Assembly: GCA_004173235.1 (NCBI GenBank)
Contig: SEAC01000017.1
Span: forward strand, 1 to 64,000
Direction of reading: 5' to 3'
DNA length: 64,000 nt
DNA from: Chitinophagaceae bacterium
GTDB taxonomy: Bacteria > Bacteroidota > Bacteroidia > Chitinophagales > Chitinophagaceae
The translations under genes were made by a program, and so were the position numbers. Positions 20,812-60,104 of this stretch are shown here, one piece after another; the stretch's first letter is position 1, and every line of letters begins with the position of its first letter. The notes under the pieces were generated by a model, which worked only from the letters and a program-made list of their open reading frames with translations, was not told where the DNA came from and made no database searches.

Positions 20812-20880
20812 GTGCCCACGGCCTTCGGCCAGGTGGGAGATTGCTTCGGCAGCTCCACTTCGTTCGCTGCCTCGCAATGA
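20812..20880. repeat. S-type dispersed repeat (GTCATTGCGA family)
   Basis: Read on the minus strand, it gives GTCATTGCGAGGCAGCGAAC, then GCCGAAGCAATCTCCCA. The opening GTCATTGCGAGG..GCGAA..GAAGCAATCTC is a repeat known in many bacterial genomes (from memory). The hairpin GGCC-gaa-GGCC closes it. Confidence 0.7.
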
Positions 20881-21000
20881 CGCCGGGTGGTGTGGGTGCC
20901 TGCGCAATGACGTCGGGTGGTGTGGGTGCCTGCGCAATGACGTCGGGTGGTGTGGGTGCCTGCGCAATGGCGCCGGGTGGTGTGGGTGCCTGCGCAATGA
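20881..21000. repeat. Tandem repeat, 30 bp x 4
   Basis: Four direct copies of CGYCGGGTGGTGTGGGTGCC followed by TGCGCAATGR, head to tail with no spacers and only three varying positions. It continues directly from the S-type repeat and ends at the 3' end of the glycosylase gene. Confidence 0.95.
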
Positions 21001-21006
21001 CGCCGC

Positions 21007-24080: not shown

Positions 24081-24082
24081 GG

Positions 24083-24137
24083 GGTTCTGAAGGTTCCTGA
24101 GGGTTCCTGAAGGTTCCGGATGGTTCCTGAGGGTTCT
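24083..24137. repeat. Decamer array T1
   Basis: Units of 10 bp: GGTTCCTGAG, GGTTCCTGAA, GGTTCCGGAT, GGTTCCTGAG (24092-24131) with partial units on both sides. Same unit family as T2 and T3. It sits directly upstream of the cysS promoter. Confidence 0.88.
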
Positions 24138-33063: not shown

Positions 33064-34992
33064 ATGATCCGACGCTTACTGCTTGGCGCCCTGCTCCTTT
33101 CTGCTACAGGGGCCGGCGCGCAAACCCTGTTTACCTACGGCTCCGACAGCGTGTCGGCGCCCGAGTTTCTGTCTGCCTACCATAAAAATAACGGGGCAGG
33201 AAAGGGCAACAGCCCGCTGAACGAATACCTTGATCTGTACATCAGCTCGCGCCTGAAGGTGAAGGAAGCGCGCCGTCTCGGCTACGATACGCTGCCGCAG
33301 ATGGTGACCGACCTGCAGCAGCTTCGCGAGCAATTGCTGCCCACCTACCTCAACGATCTTGCGGGAGTGGATGGCCTGGTGAACGAAGCTTATGCCCGCT
33401 CCAAAAGGAACATCCACGTTGCGCACATCTTCGTTGCCGCAAGAGGCGCAGCCGACACCACGGCCGCGTGGGCCAAAATGCAGCGGGCGCTTGCCGAGCT
33501 CAAAGGAGGGAAATCTTTCGGCGACGTTGCGCGCACCTATTCCGAGGATCCAACTGTGAAGACCAACGGTGGCGACCTGGGTTGGGTTGCGGTTTTTGAA
33601 TTGCCGTACGAACTCGAGAACCTTGCCTGGACCGCGCGTCCGAACGGGCCTGCGCTGGTATATCGCTCGCGAGCAGGCTATCATATTTTCAAAAGCATGG
33701 GTGAGCGTGCCGACCCTGGCACCGTGAAGGCTTCGCAAATACTCCTTGCCTTTCCGCCGGATGCCAGCGATGCCGAGCGCGCCGCAGTAAAGAAGCGTGC
33801 CGATTCTATCTACCTGCGTCTGCAGAAAGGCGACGACTTCAGCAAGCTTGCGGCTAAATTCAGCAATGATGTCGTGTCGGCCGCCAACAACGGCGAGCTG
33901 CCCGATATCAGCGTGGGACAGTTTGATCCCGTGTTCGAACAAAAGGTGTTCGCCATTGCAAAAGACGGGGCCGTTGCAGCGCCATTCCAAACAGCGCACG
34001 GCTGGCACATTGTGAAGCGCGTCAAGTATTTGCCACGCACCGGCATGGATAGCACCACGCAGGTGCAGTTGCTCCGCGAGCAGGTGCAGCGCAGCGATCG
34101 CATGAGCATCGTGCAAACGCGGCTCGCGCAAAACATTCGCAAGCAGGCGGGCTTTACAGGCCTCGCCGTTTCCGAGGCCGACCTTCGCGCCTTCACCGAT
34201 TCGCTGCTGGAATATGCGAAGCCTGGACGCACACTTGGCGTGAACAGCAGCACCGGCCTCGTAACCATCGGCACGCAAACCTTCACCGGCGAAGACTGGA
34301 TCCGCTGGGCAGGCGCCAACCGCTTCAAGAGCGATGGCAGCGGTGCGAAGCCTTTCGCACAGTTGTGGCAGGAGTTTGTGGATGCTTCGACCATCGATTT
34401 TTACAAAGCGCATCTGGAAACGTACAACCCGGCGTTCCGTGCGCAGATGGAAGAATTCCGCGATGGCAACCTCTTTTTTGAGATCATGCAGCGCGAGGTG
34501 TGGACGCCGGCGCAAACCGATACCGCTGCGCTGGAAGCTTATTACGAAGCGCACCGCAGCAAGTATGTGTGGAAGCCCAGCGCCGAGGCGGTGTTGTTTT
34601 ATGCGCCCGATGCAGCCAGTGCGCGTTCTGCACAGGCGTTGGTTGCTAAAAAGCCCGCTTCGTGGCACAGCATCGTCACCAACCACGACGAGCGCATAGC
34701 GATCGACTCCAACCGCTTCGAGATCGACCAGATACCGAACCCGACGAAGCTTCCGCTGAAGTCGCTTACGGTAACCGGCGTTCAGGTGAATGCAACCGAC
34801 GGCTCGGCCACCTTTGCCGTAGTTCTACGGATGCGCCCCGAAACCGGAGCACGCACCTTCGCCGAAGCCCGCGGACAGGTGATTGCCGACTACCAGAAAG
34901 AGCTGGAAGAGAGGTGGGTGAACAGCCTCCGCGCTAAATACCCGGTTACGATCAATCAGCCGGTTTTGCTGGAGTTGATGAAAGGGAAGTAG
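33064..34992 (+). CDS. Peptidyl-prolyl isomerase, SurA/PpiC parvulin type
   Basis: A 642-residue periplasmic folding factor. Signal peptide 1-19 (ATGAGAQ), an N-terminal helical chaperone part, two parvulin domains (about 110-215 with HVAHIFVAARG ... GGDLGWVAVFELP ... GYHIFK, and 220-325 with KASQILLAFPPDASDAER ... GWHIVKRVKYL), and a long C-terminal region of unknown fold. It probably assists outer-membrane protein folding. It follows the thioredoxin-like gene by 5 bp. Repeat T2 begins 2 nt after its TAG stop. Confidence 0.9.
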   Translation: MIRRLLLGALLLSATGAGAQTLFTYGSDSVSAPEFLSAYHKNNGAGKGNSPLNEYLDLYISSRLKVKEARRLGYDTLPQMVTDLQQLREQLLPTYLNDLAGVDGLVNEAYARSKRNIHVAHIFVAARGAADTTAAWAKMQRALAELKGGKSFGDVARTYSEDPTVKTNGGDLGWVAVFELPYELENLAWTARPNGPALVYRSRAGYHIFKSMGERADPGTVKASQILLAFPPDASDAERAAVKKRADSIYLRLQKGDDFSKLAAKFSNDVVSAANNGELPDISVGQFDPVFEQKVFAIAKDGAVAAPFQTAHGWHIVKRVKYLPRTGMDSTTQVQLLREQVQRSDRMSIVQTRLAQNIRKQAGFTGLAVSEADLRAFTDSLLEYAKPGRTLGVNSSTGLVTIGTQTFTGEDWIRWAGANRFKSDGSGAKPFAQLWQEFVDASTIDFYKAHLETYNPAFRAQMEEFRDGNLFFEIMQREVWTPAQTDTAALEAYYEAHRSKYVWKPSAEAVLFYAPDAASARSAQALVAKKPASWHSIVTNHDERIAIDSNRFEIDQIPNPTKLPLKSLTVTGVQVNATDGSATFAVVLRMRPETGARTFAEARGQVIADYQKELEERWVNSLRAKYPVTINQPVLLELMKGK

Positions 34993-34994
34993 AA

Positions 34995-35040
34995 GGTTTC
35001 TGAGAGTTCCTGAGGGTTTCTGAGGGTTCCGGAAGGTTCG
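34995..35040. repeat. Decamer array T2
   Basis: Units GGTTTCTGAG, AGTTCCTGAG, GGTTTCTGAG, GGTTCCGGAA and a partial unit, exactly 10 bp apart, starting 2 nt after the PPIase stop codon. Confidence 0.88.
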
Positions 35041-37122: not shown

Positions 37123-37228
37123 CGTGAGAAACGTGAGCCGTGAGCCGTGAGCCCGCGATGCGCGGTTAGCTGAGCCCGCGATGCGCGGTCAGCATTCACG
37201 ATTGACGATTCACGATTCACGGCTCACG
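37123..37228. repeat. Heptad palindrome element H6 (between convergent lptB and acetyltransferase gene)
   Basis: Left: CGTGAGA, then CGTGAGC x3 (37132-37152). Centre: two copies of CCCGCGATGCGCGGT. Right: ATTCACG, ATTGACG, ATTCACG, ATTCACG, GCTCACG (37194-37228). The left arm starts right after the lptB stop. The right arm overlaps the last codons and stop of the acetyltransferase gene. Confidence 0.88.
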
Positions 37229-44512: not shown

Positions 44513-45214
44513 CTAGGAGGCGGCAATGCAAAGCGTGGCGATGCTGAGCGTGACGCCCGGAACGGCAAGCAGTGCGCGGCCGCAGGCTTCGAGCGTTGCG
44601 CCGGTGGTCACCACATCGTCTATAAGCAGCAGGTGGCGGCCCTCGAGGCGGGCAGGGTCGGCAACGGCGAAGCGTCCTTCCATATTCTGCCAGCGCGCCA
44701 CGCGGCCCTTCCGGGTTTGCGTTTCGGTGGCGCTGTTGCGCTCCGATACATCGGCCCACACCGGGCGCTCCCATGCGGCGGCCATTCCCTTGCACAGCAG
44801 CTCGGCCTGGTTGTAGCCGCGTTTCTTCATCCGGCTGCGGTGGAGCGGCAGGGGCACCAGCGCATCCACCGTATCGAAGCGTGGCACGAGCGCCAGCTGG
44901 CGTCCCATCAACGTTCCCATGAAAGAAGCCAGCTCCTCCGCGCCGCCGTACTTGATGCCGTGCATCAGCCGCTGGATAATGGATTCTTTGCTGAAGTAGT
45001 ATTGCGCCGTGGCGGCGAAGAGCGGAATTCTGCCCCAGAAGAGGCGGTCGACAGGGTTGTAGGCGTGGCGCTCGAAGCCCGTGAGGGGAAGATGGGAGAG
45101 GCAGCGCAGGCAGAGGGGCACGTCGGTGGTCAGCGCGTCGGAGCCGCAGCCCGCGCAGAGGTGCGGGTAGGCGAGGTGCAGGAGGGAGTCGCGGAGGTCG
45201 TGGAGGAGGCGCAT
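44513..45214 (-). CDS. ComF family phosphoribosyltransferase-like protein
   Basis: A 233-residue ComF/GntX homologue. N-terminal zinc-ribbon cysteines (LCAGCGSDALTTDVPLCLRCL), then a PRTase fold with ALVPLPLHRSRMKKRGYNQAELL and the PRPP-binding loop HLLLIDDVVTTGATLEACG. The family is linked to natural transformation and DNA processing after uptake. ATG 45214 is used; the upstream in-frame extension to 45337 runs through heptad array H7. Confidence 0.88.
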   Translation of the reverse strand: MRLLHDLRDSLLHLAYPHLCAGCGSDALTTDVPLCLRCLSHLPLTGFERHAYNPVDRLFWGRIPLFAATAQYYFSKESIIQRLMHGIKYGGAEELASFMGTLMGRQLALVPRFDTVDALVPLPLHRSRMKKRGYNQAELLCKGMAAAWERPVWADVSERNSATETQTRKGRVARWQNMEGRFAVADPARLEGRHLLLIDDVVTTGATLEACGRALLAVPGVTLSIATLCIAAS

Positions 45215-45227
45215 GGGGCGGTTGGAC

Positions 45228-45291
45228 TCGTGAATCGTCAATCGTGAATCGTGAATGCTGACGCGCGATGTCGTCAATCGTAAAGGCTGAT
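45228..45291. repeat. Heptad array H7 (left arm around the four-helix-bundle gene)
   Basis: Units TCGTGAA, TCGTCAA, TCGTGAA, TCGTGAA, TGCTGAC (45228-45262), then degenerate TCGTCAA, TCGTAAA. It is the inverted complement of H8: the order TCGTGAA-TCGTCAA-TCGTGAA-TGC is shared, with one extra unit here. Confidence 0.85.
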
Positions 45292-45297
45292 GCTTGA

Positions 45298-45654
45298 TCA
45301 GCCATTCGCCATCAGCTTTGTTAGCATCTGGAAGCACCGCACGAGCAGGTTGCCCAATTCGGTCATCTGTTCTTTATTGCAGTAGCCAAGGTCGCCGGCA
45401 ATGTCAAGAAGTGCATCGATTTCAATAACAGAACCCCGGGCGATTTCATAAAAGCGTTTTCGTTCTGGTGACGTTCGCCGGGAAGCGCCCTCTGCCGTAT
45501 TCAGGTGAACCGACAAAGCTGCGCGCCTTAACTGCTGGCTCATTGCGAAACGCTCCTCTGGTGGAAGCAATTTCGAGAGTTTATAGCAAGCATGCACAAA
45601 GGATCGTGAAACCTGGTAGATGTCTAATTTCTGATGCTCGAGCTGAAGAAACAT
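45298..45654 (-). CDS. Four-helix-bundle protein (23S rRNA intervening-sequence protein family)
   Basis: A 118-residue all-helical protein of the S23/IVP family, which includes the proteins encoded within 23S rRNA intervening sequences and the related Avd proteins of diversity-generating retroelements. Seen features: LDIYQVSRSFVHACYKLSKLLPPEERFAMSQQLRRAALSVHLNTAEGASR and a last helix ELGNLLVRCFQMLTKLM. No rRNA is nearby. The gene has its own -7-like box (TAGCTTCG, 45663-45670) 8 nt before the ATG and sits between inverted heptad arrays H7 and H8. The role is probably RNA binding; function unproven. Confidence 0.85.
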   Translation of the reverse strand: MFLQLEHQKLDIYQVSRSFVHACYKLSKLLPPEERFAMSQQLRRAALSVHLNTAEGASRRTSPERKRFYEIARGSVIEIDALLDIAGDLGYCNKEQMTELGNLLVRCFQMLTKLMANG

Positions 45655-45662
45655 TTTTCACT

Positions 45663-45670
45663 CGAAGCTA
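45663..45670 (-). promoter_or_regulatory. -7-like box of four-helix-bundle gene
   Basis: TAGCTTCG on the minus strand, one mismatch to TAnnTTTG, ends 8 nt before ATG 45654. Confidence 0.45.
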
Positions 45671-45735
45671 CCGGCGCCTGGAAACCCGACCTTGTTGTTT
45701 TGAACAGTGTTTCCCGGTATTTTTCTCGTTCTGCG

Positions 45736-45771
45736 CTGGTGGTTTTCCCACCAGCCTTCCCGCAGGGAAGG
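45736..45771. repeat. Two adjacent hairpins upstream of the four-helix-bundle gene
   Basis: CTGGTGG/CCACCAG (5-nt loop) and CCTTCCC-gca-GGGAAGG, side by side. They lie between array H8 and the promoter of the four-helix-bundle gene. Confidence 0.7.
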
Positions 45772-45805
45772 ATCCGTGGGAGCAGCTGCCATCAGTGGTG
45801 CCCGC

Positions 45806-45840
45806 ATTCACGATTGACGATTCACGATTGCCGCTTCACG
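45806..45840. repeat. Heptad array H8 (right arm around the four-helix-bundle gene)
   Basis: Units ATTCACG, ATTGACG, ATTCACG, ATTGCCG, CTTCACG. The radA stop codon (TGA, minus strand) lies in the last unit. It is the inverted complement of H7. Confidence 0.87.
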
Positions 45841-47218
45841 AAAACAAATACCTGTACACCTCCTCCACCTGTCCCATCTGCACCACCTCAATGGCAAACT
45901 TCTTTGCATTCAGTCCCTTCTGGTTGTATTTCGACACCACGATCTTCGCAAAGCCCAGTTTCTCGGCTTCAGCCACGCGCTGCTCGATGCGGTTGACTGC
46001 ACGGATCTCGCCCGACAAACCCACCTCGCCGGCAAAGCAGATATCCTGGCCAACAGGTACGTCTTCGTAAGAAGATAAAAGAGCAACGAGCACGGCCAGG
46101 TCGATGGACGGATCATCCACTTTCAAGCCGCCGGCCATGTTGAGAAAAACATCCTTCACACCAAAGTGAAAGCCGCCGCGCTTTTCGAGCACCGCCAGCA
46201 GCAGCTGCAGCCGGCGCAGGTCGAAGCCGCTGACGGTTCGCTGCGGCGTGCCGTACACCGATTGTGCCACAAGCGCCTGCACTTCGATGAGCAGCGGGCG
46301 CATTCCTTCCATCGTGGCCGCAATGGCGGTGCCGCTCAGCGCTTCTTCTTTCTGCGTGATGAGGATCTCGCTCGGGTTGCGCACGGGCAGCATGCCCCCT
46401 TCGTTCATCTGATAGATGCCCAGCTCCGACGTGGAGCCGAAGCGGTTCTTGAGCGTGCGGAGTATGCGGTACACGTAATGGCGGTCGCCTTCAAACTGAA
46501 GCACGGTGTCTACCATGTGTTCGAGGATCTTCGGACCGGCGATCGATCCTTCCTTTGTTATATGGCCAATGAGAAATACCGGCGTGTTCGTCTCTTTCGC
46601 AAACTGCTGGAACTCGGCTGCGCATTCGCGTATTTGCGACACCGACCCGGGCGACGATTCGATGAAAGGAGATTCGAGCGTTTGTATGGAATCGACGATG
46701 ATCAGTTCGGGCTTCAGCTTCTTGATCTCGTTGAAGATGGATTGCGTGCTCGTTTCCGTCAGCAGGTAAAATTGTTCGTTGGCCATGCCCAGCCGGTCGG
46801 CGCGCATCTTCAACTGCTGCTCGCTTTCTTCACCGGAGATATACAACACCGTCATTCCCTGCAGCTGTAAACCCATTTGCAAAAACAACGTTGACTTGCC
46901 GATGCCGGGCTCGCCGGCAACAAGCACGATGGAGCCCGGAACGATGCCTCCGCCGAGCACACGATTCAACTCGGGATCGATCGTAGCAATGCGCTCGGTG
47001 GTGCTTGTTTGAACAGTGTGCAACGCCTGCACCTTGCGCGATGTAGACGGAACTTCGTGATACGATTGCCAGTCGGTGCCCTTTCCTTTTTTGTCGTCTT
47101 TCTGAATGAGTTCTTCCACGAAAGTATTCCACTGCTGACACGAGGGACACTTGCCCGACCACTTGGTGCTTTCATAGCCGCAGTTCTGGCAGAAGTATGC
47201 GGTTTTAACTTTCGACAT
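45836..47218 (-). CDS. radA: DNA repair protein RadA
   Basis: RecA-like ATPase that promotes branch migration in recombination repair. The 460-residue protein has the C4 zinc finger (C10, C13, C24, C27), Walker A GEPGIGKST (102-110), Walker B ELIIVDSIQTL, the RadA-specific KNRFGST and the Lon-like C-terminal domain (MAGGLKVDDPSIDLAVLVALLSS). ATG 47218 matches the family start MSKVKTAYFCQNCGYES. The last codon and stop (TCG TGA) are within heptad array H8. Confidence 0.95.
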   Translation of the reverse strand: MSKVKTAYFCQNCGYESTKWSGKCPSCQQWNTFVEELIQKDDKKGKGTDWQSYHEVPSTSRKVQALHTVQTSTTERIATIDPELNRVLGGGIVPGSIVLVAGEPGIGKSTLFLQMGLQLQGMTVLYISGEESEQQLKMRADRLGMANEQFYLLTETSTQSIFNEIKKLKPELIIVDSIQTLESPFIESSPGSVSQIRECAAEFQQFAKETNTPVFLIGHITKEGSIAGPKILEHMVDTVLQFEGDRHYVYRILRTLKNRFGSTSELGIYQMNEGGMLPVRNPSEILITQKEEALSGTAIAATMEGMRPLLIEVQALVAQSVYGTPQRTVSGFDLRRLQLLLAVLEKRGGFHFGVKDVFLNMAGGLKVDDPSIDLAVLVALLSSYEDVPVGQDICFAGEVGLSGEIRAVNRIEQRVAEAEKLGFAKIVVSKYNQKGLNAKKFAIEVVQMGQVEEVYRYLFS

Positions 47219-47611
47219 AAAAGAGGGGATTGAAAACGCTGGGGAGATAAAATGAAGAAAGGGGTCAATCTTGCGACCAACCCCTTTACTTACTAACCCA
47301 TTAAATTCTGACACTAAATTACAAACTGGGGGCACATAACAAAATTATTTTTTGCCCCTGTGTATAAGTTTTAGCAATCCCTTGCGCAAGGAAAAGACAA
47401 TGCCGAAGAGCATTTTATGTATTGATAATCAGCAAATTGCAAAGTCACTTGGGCGGAGCAGTTTGGCTAAAGGGCTGAAAAACTGTCAGTTACAAACCGC
47501 CAAATCGGCCCCTTTTTCGCCAAAAAACTTAGCAAAACCGGCCAATTCGCGCCCTTCTGTACGGCTGAGCCTTTTTGGAGCCGATTTTGCCCCCTCTTTT
47601 CAAAAAAAGGG
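47219..47611. other. 393-bp AT-richer intergenic region between divergent radA and metallopeptidase genes
   Basis: It holds the divergent promoters, a GGGGT..ACCCC inverted repeat near 47258-47285 and A/T tracts. A plus-strand open frame (47352-47669) has no family signal and overlaps the metallopeptidase start. No structured RNA was recognised. Confidence 0.5.
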
Positions 47612-55456: not shown

Positions 55457-55460
55457 GGAA

Positions 55461-55530
55461 GGTTGCGGATGGTTCCGGATGGTTTTGGAGGGTCCCTGAT
55501 GGTTCCGGATGGTTCTGGAGGGTTTCGGGT
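55461..55530. repeat. Decamer array T3
   Basis: Seven units exactly 10 bp long: GGTTGCGGAT, GGTTCCGGAT, GGTTTTGGAG, GGTCCCTGAT, GGTTCCGGAT, GGTTCTGGAG, GGTTTCGGGT. It begins 4 nt after the gldD stop. Confidence 0.92.
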
Positions 55531-57465: not shown

Positions 57466-57476
57466 TCCGCTGCCCT

Positions 57477-57602
57477 CGCTTCGGCTGCGCTCAGCGTGAC
57501 AGCGGGTTCCAGTGGCTTCGCTTCGGCTGCGCTCAGCGTGACAGCGGGTTCCAGTGGCATCGCTTCGGCTGCGCTCAGCGAGACAGCGGGTTCCAGTGGC
57601 TT
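57477..57602. repeat. Tandem repeat, 42 bp x 3
   Basis: Three direct copies starting CGCTTCGGCTGCGCTCAGCG, differing at few positions; a fourth copy decays after six bases. It belongs to the S-type dispersed repeats (minus strand: GCTGAGCGCAGCCGAAGCG). Confidence 0.92.
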
Positions 57603-57855
57603 CGCTCCCGGTGCTGCGCACCGGGATGACCGGCGCTCCCTTAGAGAAAAGGAAGGCGCGGCCGGGAGTCAATCCCACGGATGCCCCAGGCCGCGCCTCT
57701 TCTGCCCCCACGGTGCCGCCGTCATCCCGGCACGCAGTGCCGGGATCTAAATGGCACGTCCTCGCGGGGGGATGCACGCAGTGCCGGGATCTAAATGGTA
57801 CGTCCTCGCGGTGGGAGGCCGCAGCAGCGGGATCTAACTGGTAGGTCCTAGCCAG
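57603..57855. repeat. Composite S-type repeat block with 44-bp tandem copies
   Basis: Contains hairpins CCCGGTGC-tgc-GCACCGGG and GGCGCGGCC..GGCCGCGCC, then copies of CACGCAGTGCCGGGATCTAA with ATGGNACGTCCTCGCGG at 57731 and 57775 and a decayed third near 57820. No gene in this stretch. Confidence 0.85.
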
Positions 57856-59889: not shown

Positions 59890-59922
59890 TGTCTCATTGC
59901 CTGCGCGTGGACTGGTGAATGT

Positions 59923-60032
59923 ACCTGCACGACCGTACGCACCTACCTGCACGACCGTACGCACGTACCGGAACGGCCGTACGCACGTTGCGGCACGACC
60001 ATGAGCACGTAGCTGGACGATCGTACGCACGT
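59923..60032. repeat. Tandem repeat, 22 bp x 5
   Basis: Five contiguous 22-bp units of the form ACCTGCACGACCGTACGCAC plus GT, with variation mostly at the ends. Each has the palindromic core CGTACG (changed to CATGAG in unit 4). It lies 90 bp upstream of the deacetylase-like gene. Confidence 0.93.
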
Positions 60033-60104
60033 ACTTTTCGGGTTGATTGGGTTGGAATACGTTTCCAATGCCCTCGGTAAGGCAGTGGATGCGCCGGATG
60101 GTCG

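Follow-up and report, generated by a model that had tools for sequence, protein, structure and literature searches.

Between radA and a comF-like gene of a Chitinophagaceae bacterium, a small gene of the S23 (23S rRNA IVP, four-helix-bundle) family lies between two mutually inverted arrays of heptanucleotide repeats, and the question that this locus raises is whether gene and arrays together form a mobile cassette, as a first-pass annotation of the DNA had proposed. In this study, the window (the whole analysed stretch of 64,000 nucleotides) was compared with related genomes and with S23 genes elsewhere. The features of the locus are collected in Table 1.

Table 1. Features of the S23 locus and of one S23-less hairpin; positions are those of the window.
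Feature	Position	Strand	Remark
Whole proposed element (arm, S23, arm)	45228..45841	-	arms pair over ~22 bp around the ORF in the predicted RNA fold
H8, heptad arm 5' of S23 on the coding strand	45804..45841	-	TCGTGAA GCGGCAA TCGTGAA TCGTCAA TCGTGAA TGC
H7, heptad arm 3' of S23, inverted relative to H8	45228..45262	+	22 nt perfectly complementary to H8
S23 / 23S rRNA IVP four-helix-bundle ORF, 118 aa	45298..45654	-	PF05635, TIGR02436
Degenerate additional units TCGTCAA TCGTAAA within the 3' arm region	45271..45284	+	
radA, 5' neighbour of S23 in gene order	45836..47335	-	named from domains
comF-like phosphoribosyltransferase gene, 3' neighbour of S23	44513..45214	-	ATG at 45214
S23-less inverted heptad hairpin	37132..37228	.	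arm 37194-37215 shares the TCGTSAA unit with the S23 element

The H7 array (45228-45256, plus strand) reads TCGTGAA-TCGTCAA-TCGTGAA-TCGTGAA-T, and the H8 array (45806-45841) reads ATTCACGATTGACGATTCACGATTGCCGCTTCACGA. The two had been described as inverted copies sharing the unit order TCGTGAA-TCGTCAA-TCGTGAA-TGC. The inversion was borne out by arms of 22 nt (45228-45249 and 45806-45827) that are 100% complementary, the complementarity being 92% in a 26-nt frame and 85% in a 34-nt frame; the unit order also stood, except that H7 carries one additional TCGTGAA before the TGC. The outer unit or edge of H8 overlaps the radA stop codon (45836-45838), and H7 starts 13 bp from the comF ATG. Both neighbours were named from their domains and conserved adjacency, the Pfam match of comF being weak (26.4 bits, cut-off 26.3).

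When the element was folded as RNA, the arms were predicted to pair round the entire ORF in both the MFE and the centroid structure (z -3.6, 20 shuffles), and two strong hairpins were predicted between H8 and the ORF; the annotation had mentioned two hairpins without coordinates. The -7-like box that it had assigned to the gene was not recovered, since the exact TAnnTTTG, which we take to be the Bacteroidota -7 box motif, is absent from the 246 bp 5' of the S23 ATG. No nuclease, transposase or reverse transcriptase gene was found in the element, and only a PF05635-matched ORF lies between the arms.

This ORF is a complete S23-family gene, as had been stated, with matches to PF05635 (23S_rRNA_IVP, E 5.9e-30) and TIGR02436 (E 5.4e-27); among solved structures, its product gave a sequence match to 2gsc (E 1.6e-22) and a weak one to 2rld (E 0.45). 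Across 14 pairs of S23 genes that are orthologous or otherwise related, pN was 0.16-0.39 against a pS of 0.69-1.02 (dS was saturated in 13 of the 14, hence no ratio is given), and this contrast indicates purifying selection, so that S23 looks like a functioning protein. To our knowledge, no function is known for the PF05635 'four helix bundle' genes. In the accessible part of one source, PF05635 proteins are called 'functionally uncharacterized' (PMC11270868).

Short-period arrays are frequent in the genome of the window (hereafter G000). In 464 kb of it, 27 period-7 and 10 period-8 arrays were counted, and one 3-mer-block shuffle gave none (the G000 control DNA represents about 11% of the genome plus the window). 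An inverted partner within 1.5 kb was found for 18 of 38 arrays of period 7-9, the other 20 having none. The wide spacing of the S23 pair, remarked on from the outset, indeed proved unusual, at about 549 bp compared with 29-149 bp for the other inverted pairs; a second S23 gene in the 464 kb (on contig C16) has arms too degenerate for the array list. Many direct-only arrays were observed on contigs C16 and C19 (L165-L184), for example GGTAATGG and TTGGTTTA (period 8), GTTTGTC and ATGTGAG. The window also contains period-10 arrays of GGGTTCCTGA-like sequence, a separate repeat type (24082-24136, 34992-35039 and 55457-55528), and longer tandem repeats with units of 30, 42, 44 and 22 bp (20868-21005, 57476-57606, 57729-57849 and 59921-60034).

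Complementary flanks of S23 genes and their reach

For each gene, the preceding 300 bp were aligned locally with the reverse complement of the following 300 bp; the best alignment gave the score, and the threshold was set at 28 or more. In a non-random set of 120 distinct S23 ORFs, drawn from close relatives and best family matches, 98 scored at least 28 and 66 at least 36. Weak, fragmentary matches were retained in this set, L164 lying under the Pfam cut-off, and two loci (L007, with one frame-broken gene, and L089) contributed two ORFs each. L007 (G000:C33:55056-55366) is a second S23 gene of the window's clade, with arms GGTGAAT/GGTCAAT, and its syntenic orthologue in the congener G012 (L147) has an open frame.

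Because the set was non-random, the full sets of three congeneric drafts and a second sample from other genera of the family were added. In the drafts (92, 95 and 85% complete; PF05635 matches at E <= 1e-5), 25 of 27 matches scored at least 28, namely 8 of 9 in G000 (L001 scored 25), 10 of 10 in G012 and 7 of 8 in G010 (L162 scored 20). The second sample took in 13 of the 14 matches of G057, 4 of 4 of G051 and 3 of 6 of G040, and 15 of these 20 genes reached the threshold. By comparison, and in control sets unmatched for intergenic length, the threshold was reached by 4 of 348 ORFs of G000 (6 of 350 ORFs of the 464 kb, two of them being S23 genes) and, in G057, by 4 of 224 ORFs and 0 of 49 small ORFs. 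Other ORFs within the S23 loci gave 13 of 261, at least four of these 13 being S23 genes of duplicate loci, and 9 of 257 when four such genes are taken out. Moreover, in an earlier set of 80 loci with 400-bp flanks, 64 of 80 true flank pairs qualified, against 35 of 600 mispaired flanks of different loci. The first-pass annotation had suggested that S23 genes be counted for flanking inverted arrays against other genes, and the count came out in favour of enrichment. The S23 genes below threshold numbered 22 of 120 in the main set, 5 of 20 in the other genera and 6 of 18 on plasmids.

PF05635 genes were present in 45 of 60 sampled genomes of the family (E <= 1e-8), with up to 16 per genome. High-scoring loci include Chitinophagaceae, Mucilaginibacter, Ignavibacteria and one Kiritimatiellota genome, and two KSB1 loci scored 18 and 24 (400-bp flanks). 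For plasmid S23 genes, mostly cyanobacterial, the threshold was reached by 12 of 18, and for the neighbouring genes that served as control by 3 of 15; this count used 18 of 28 records, L185 and L218 being one insertion site. The qualifying plasmid loci belong to cyanobacteria, to Gemmatirosa (Gemmatimonadota) and to Azospirillum (Alphaproteobacteria), and the cyanobacterial arm units include AGGGAAC in Nostoc and AAAAGGG in Geminocystis. In three of the six plasmid misses (L188, L223 and L227) one-sided arrays were seen by eye, and these are still counted as misses. In phages, no S23 related to that of the window was matched.

S23 genes were also observed inside CRISPR operons, in the orders cas10-S23-cmr3 and, twice, cas6-S23-cas4 (L187, L221 and L225). 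An association of S23/IVP with CRISPR loci appears in a figure legend, in the accessible part of a published source (PMC10910872), and it may in part reflect the insertion of such elements into those operons.

Occupied and empty junctions among relatives

A comparison of the radA-comF junction in related genomes had been proposed as well. From 38 genomes, 30 radA loci were examined, 20 of which had comF in the stretch examined, and S23 was found between the two genes only in G000 and G012; in the other 18 relatives (L012-L029) the genes are 5-285 bp apart with no S23. An S23 gene kept at this junction without arrays, which the annotation had named as speaking against its proposal, was not seen, as the only other S23 gene there, that of G012, has arrays, with a different unit in both arms. 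In G010, comF does not adjoin radA, and a supposed arm remnant after radA (L011, score 18, shuffle maximum 19) was dropped. Short S23-less hairpins were found at three of the radA-comF junctions (L016-L018), with scores of 27, 38 and 29 against shuffle maxima of 16, 19 and 19.

Closer comparisons were offered by plasmids. In a plasmid of Picosynechococcus PCC 7003, S23 and its arms lie between cas10 and cmr3, and in the 92% identical region of pAQ6 of PCC 7002 these two genes are 12 bp apart, with no S23 and no hairpin above shuffles. At the TraM-gene junction of Nostoc plasmids (7 of 14 records read), array, S23 and array are present in C052 and N. edaphicum, and the junction is empty in two C057 plasmids (93-95% identical) and in UHCC 0926. 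In ATCC 53789 (L217) the same junction holds a hairpin that lacks S23 but has related arms (score 42; shuffles reach at most 20) and an identical left edge, and in C057 plasmid H a different hairpin (36, shuffle maximum 28) with GTCA on either side. For the S23-less Nostoc plasmid hairpin with AATTCAA heptad arms (L219), GTCA was seen by eye on both flanks, compared with once in the empty site (L220); it is possible that this represents a 4-bp target duplication of the S23-less hairpin.

In Nostoc, about 40 bp of the empty site have given way to the S23 insertion. No clean target duplication was found at the S23 insertions compared here, where the Bacteroidota relatives share about 70-85% DNA identity, and the exact insertion ends are obscured by the divergence of these relatives or, in Nostoc, by the 40-bp difference. 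Two further Bacteroidota sites were compared. At the site of L145, G000 has 171 bp instead of 658 bp, no S23 and no clear array (20, shuffle maximum 20). At the site of L155, the S23 gene is missing in G000 and G012, and G000 (G000:C10:248283-248548) has a direct period-8 array (GGAGTTAA/GGGGTTAA) without S23, which indicates that arrays can exist there without the gene. Inverted arrays of other units at this site scored 19 in G000 (shuffle maximum 23) and 22 in G012 (maximum 21), and only the direct array of G000 stands. The cassette reading draws support from presence and absence in plasmid backbones that are 92-95% identical, with mobility as the putative cause.

The S23-less hairpins at these same junctions in relatives (radA-comF and the Nostoc TraM site), together with the finding that S23-less hairpins outnumber S23 elements in the 464 kb of G000, would also suit a different explanation, namely that the arrays are an independent class of heptad hairpin, arising at gene junctions through slippage and fold-back copying and perhaps serving as terminators or RNA-processing sites, and that S23 is a passenger which has repeatedly entered them or been kept inside. 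We consider this unlikely in view of the relation between arms and protein.

Array units, arm divergence and dispersed copies

The array unit comprises 7, sometimes 8-9 bp and is locus-specific. For the 91 of the 120 S23 ORFs with a score of at least 28 and a protein of at least 95 aa, the similarity of two units was correlated with the identity of their S23 proteins (Mantel r 0.43, compared with at most 0.12 in 2000 permutations). Arm k-mers were shared (J > 0.1) in 72% of 83 pairs at 60-80% protein identity, compared with 1-3% below 35%, and yet the arms of different copies within one genome (G000, G010 or G012) are unrelated, with a mean 5-mer Jaccard index of 0.015 over 81 such pairs. Arms that follow the protein but differ among copies of one genome argue against a passenger, and by these sequence comparisons the array unit is an attribute of the element rather than of the host. 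The correlation between unit and protein may, even so, stem from co-inheritance alone, without recognition. Furthermore, the arms are polarised relative to the gene, as G outnumbers C in the 5' arm on the coding strand of 91 of 99 elements (the opposite holds for 7) and of 12 of 15 in the second sample; this bias and the recurrence of the association in distant phyla also speak against S23 as a passenger.

The two arms of an element change together. The window unit TCGTGAA/TCGTCAA corresponds to TCGGCAA/TCGGGAA/TCGCTAA at the syntenic locus of G012 (L146). Among 12 syntenic comparisons there were 10 in which the arms of each element matched one another better than either arm matched its counterpart in the other species, a test in which the arms had been chosen to maximise the within-element score, which favours a concerted outcome; the scores were 44 and 49 against 19 and 24 for the window and L146, and 40 and 44 against 10 and 13 for L006 and L160, and the exceptions were L003/L149 and L003/L156. 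Whole-flank comparisons of orthologues are inflated by shared coding sequence, and the concerted test was made on arms only. The concerted divergence would be explained most simply by fold-back copying between the arms together with slippage within the arrays. That the unit differs per element, that both arms change jointly and that other phyla are reached lies outside what the first-pass annotation had foreseen.

Units of the elements are also dispersed in their hosts. The 8-nt unit of L155 gave 41 tandem-pair matches in its own genome, G010 (27 arrays, 2 of them its own arms), against 0 in nine congeners, and the 9-nt unit of L145 gave 13 matches in G012 (10 arrays, 2 of them its own) against 0 in nine congeners, the reversed-pattern controls being 0 in both cases. 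Occurrence of these units only in the genome carrying that S23, among ten, is a further point against the passenger explanation. The unit of the window is less host-exclusive, with 80 matches in G000, 53 in G010, 27 in G008, 10 in G012 and 0-2 in six others (reversed control 2 in total), and a strict one-to-one rule is not fitted, because 0 of 8 S23 genes of G010 have arms of this unit. Arms of the nine elements of G000 matched a mean of 5.0 sites in the 464 kb of G000, compared with 0.88 for 78 foreign arms (Mann-Whitney p 1.8e-5), single foreign arms reaching 10-11 sites; arms of 15 elements of G010 and G012 matched G000 at 0-12 sites, two of them at 10-12.

This dispersal of units through the genome, the purifying selection on S23 and the position of the arms next to neighbouring start and stop codons are likewise what would be expected if S23 were a resident regulator and the arrays its operator or mRNA sites, with autoregulation, a dispersed regulon and no mobility. 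Such an arrangement appears quite improbable, as the segment is present or absent at conserved junctions, including the inside of the cmr operon of the 92% identical plasmids, and as copies in one genome use unrelated units. Finally, mere coincidence, by which S23 genes would only occupy long intergenic stretches of a lineage rich in heptad arrays, could appeal to the 37 period-7 and period-8 arrays that the 464 kb of G000 contain, to the controls unmatched for intergenic length and to the 3 of 15 neighbouring genes of plasmid loci that also reach threshold, and it is extremely improbable against 25 of 27 S23 genes of the three drafts versus 4 of 348 ORFs of G000 and a locus-specific complementarity (64 of 80 true versus 35 of 600 mispaired flanks).

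A candidate minimal mobile element and its relation to known systems

The H7-H8 segment is probably a copy of a small mobile element of wide distribution, which consists of a 7-9 bp repeat array, an S23-family gene and a mirror array, S23 being its protein and the two arrays its ends. This reading is built on sequence features, namely the architecture, the enrichment, the biased polarity, the locus-specific units, the correlation of unit and protein, the concerted arms, presence and absence, dispersal and purifying selection. S23 would then be the dedicated protein of the element, and the arrays would be not only its ends but most likely the recognition target of S23, bound as the stem of a hairpin formed by RNA or single-stranded DNA. 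Such an element would settle between neighbouring genes, and S23-less hairpins and solo arrays sharing its unit would be non-autonomous derivatives scattered in the host. The arms may template each other by fold-back copying, by which complementarity would be kept as the unit drifts, and units may spread along an array through slippage. Any partner enzyme, possibly a reverse transcriptase or a replication enzyme, would act in trans, and the RNA of the element may be trimmed by RNase III.

The 23S rRNA intervening sequences (IVSs), e.g., those of Coxiella and Leptospira, likewise have an S23-family ORF enclosed by terminal inverted repeats; these pair into an RNA stem, which is a predicted one in the present element. 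The 28-bp stem of the Coxiella IVS is cut in vitro by RNase III, according to the accessible part of the source (PMC4990558). Unlike these IVSs, the window element lies between radA and comF and not within an rRNA gene, it is bounded by tandem arrays whose 7-9 bp unit is specific to the locus, and several copies and S23-less hairpins occur per genome. If the stems of rRNA IVSs also proved to be heptad arrays, the window element would be a variant of the IVS.

In the REP/RAYT systems (REPtrons), inverted repeats flank a gene, and related repeats are scattered over the genome, solo or in pairs. The present element likewise has its gene between inverted copies of a repeat that recurs elsewhere in the host genome. 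In contrast to REP/RAYT, it has no Y1/HUH transposase, its ends are tandem arrays, and the unit differs among elements of one genome. Being neither placed in 23S rRNA nor equipped with a Y1 transposase, it is neither an IVS nor a REPtron, though it would work like both. In the accessible part of a further source, PF05635 is described as resembling Avd, a protein of diversity-generating retroelements, with homology suggested from 4DWL versus 2GSC, and Avd as essential to their retrohoming (PMC10053308). The element differs from such a retroelement in containing no reverse transcriptase and no template or variable repeat, and its neighbours, considering the locus only, are radA and comF.

Known dispersed tandem repeats of heptamers include the STRRs of cyanobacteria. 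Arrays of the heptamer TAACTGA have been reported (PMC4679880), and the P6b repeats TDNGATT/NNTGAGT of the Nostoc trnL intron build a stem and have origins called unknown (PMC4476775), both as given in the accessible parts of the sources. These families (STRR type, TAACTGA, P6b) are dispersed tandem 7-nt arrays as in G000. A difference is that no S23 gene is tied to the TAACTGA and P6b repeats in the accessible parts of those sources (PMC4679880, PMC4476775), the S23 link being proposed here. In the open-access literature, to which the search was largely confined as most subscription papers lay outside it, no paper was found that ties S23 genes to heptad arrays.

In conclusion, the recurring layout of S23 between arrays suggests a type of mobile element not recognised so far and, for some unexplained short repeats, a possible origin. 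In a broader version, which we put forward tentatively and rate somewhat below an even chance, S23 proteins would define widespread minimal mobile elements with self-homogenising array ends, in which each lineage reads its own 7-9 nt code and the arms rewrite each other by fold-back templating; the many heptameric arrays that lack an explanation in Bacteroidota, cyanobacteria and other groups would be their footprints, and the rRNA IVSs a special case that landed in 23S genes. PF05635 genes thereby gain a concrete, testable context, and a possible origin is offered for dispersed heptamer arrays. As a system for the study of recognition codes, two inverted arrays that evolve in concert with a linked protein would be striking.
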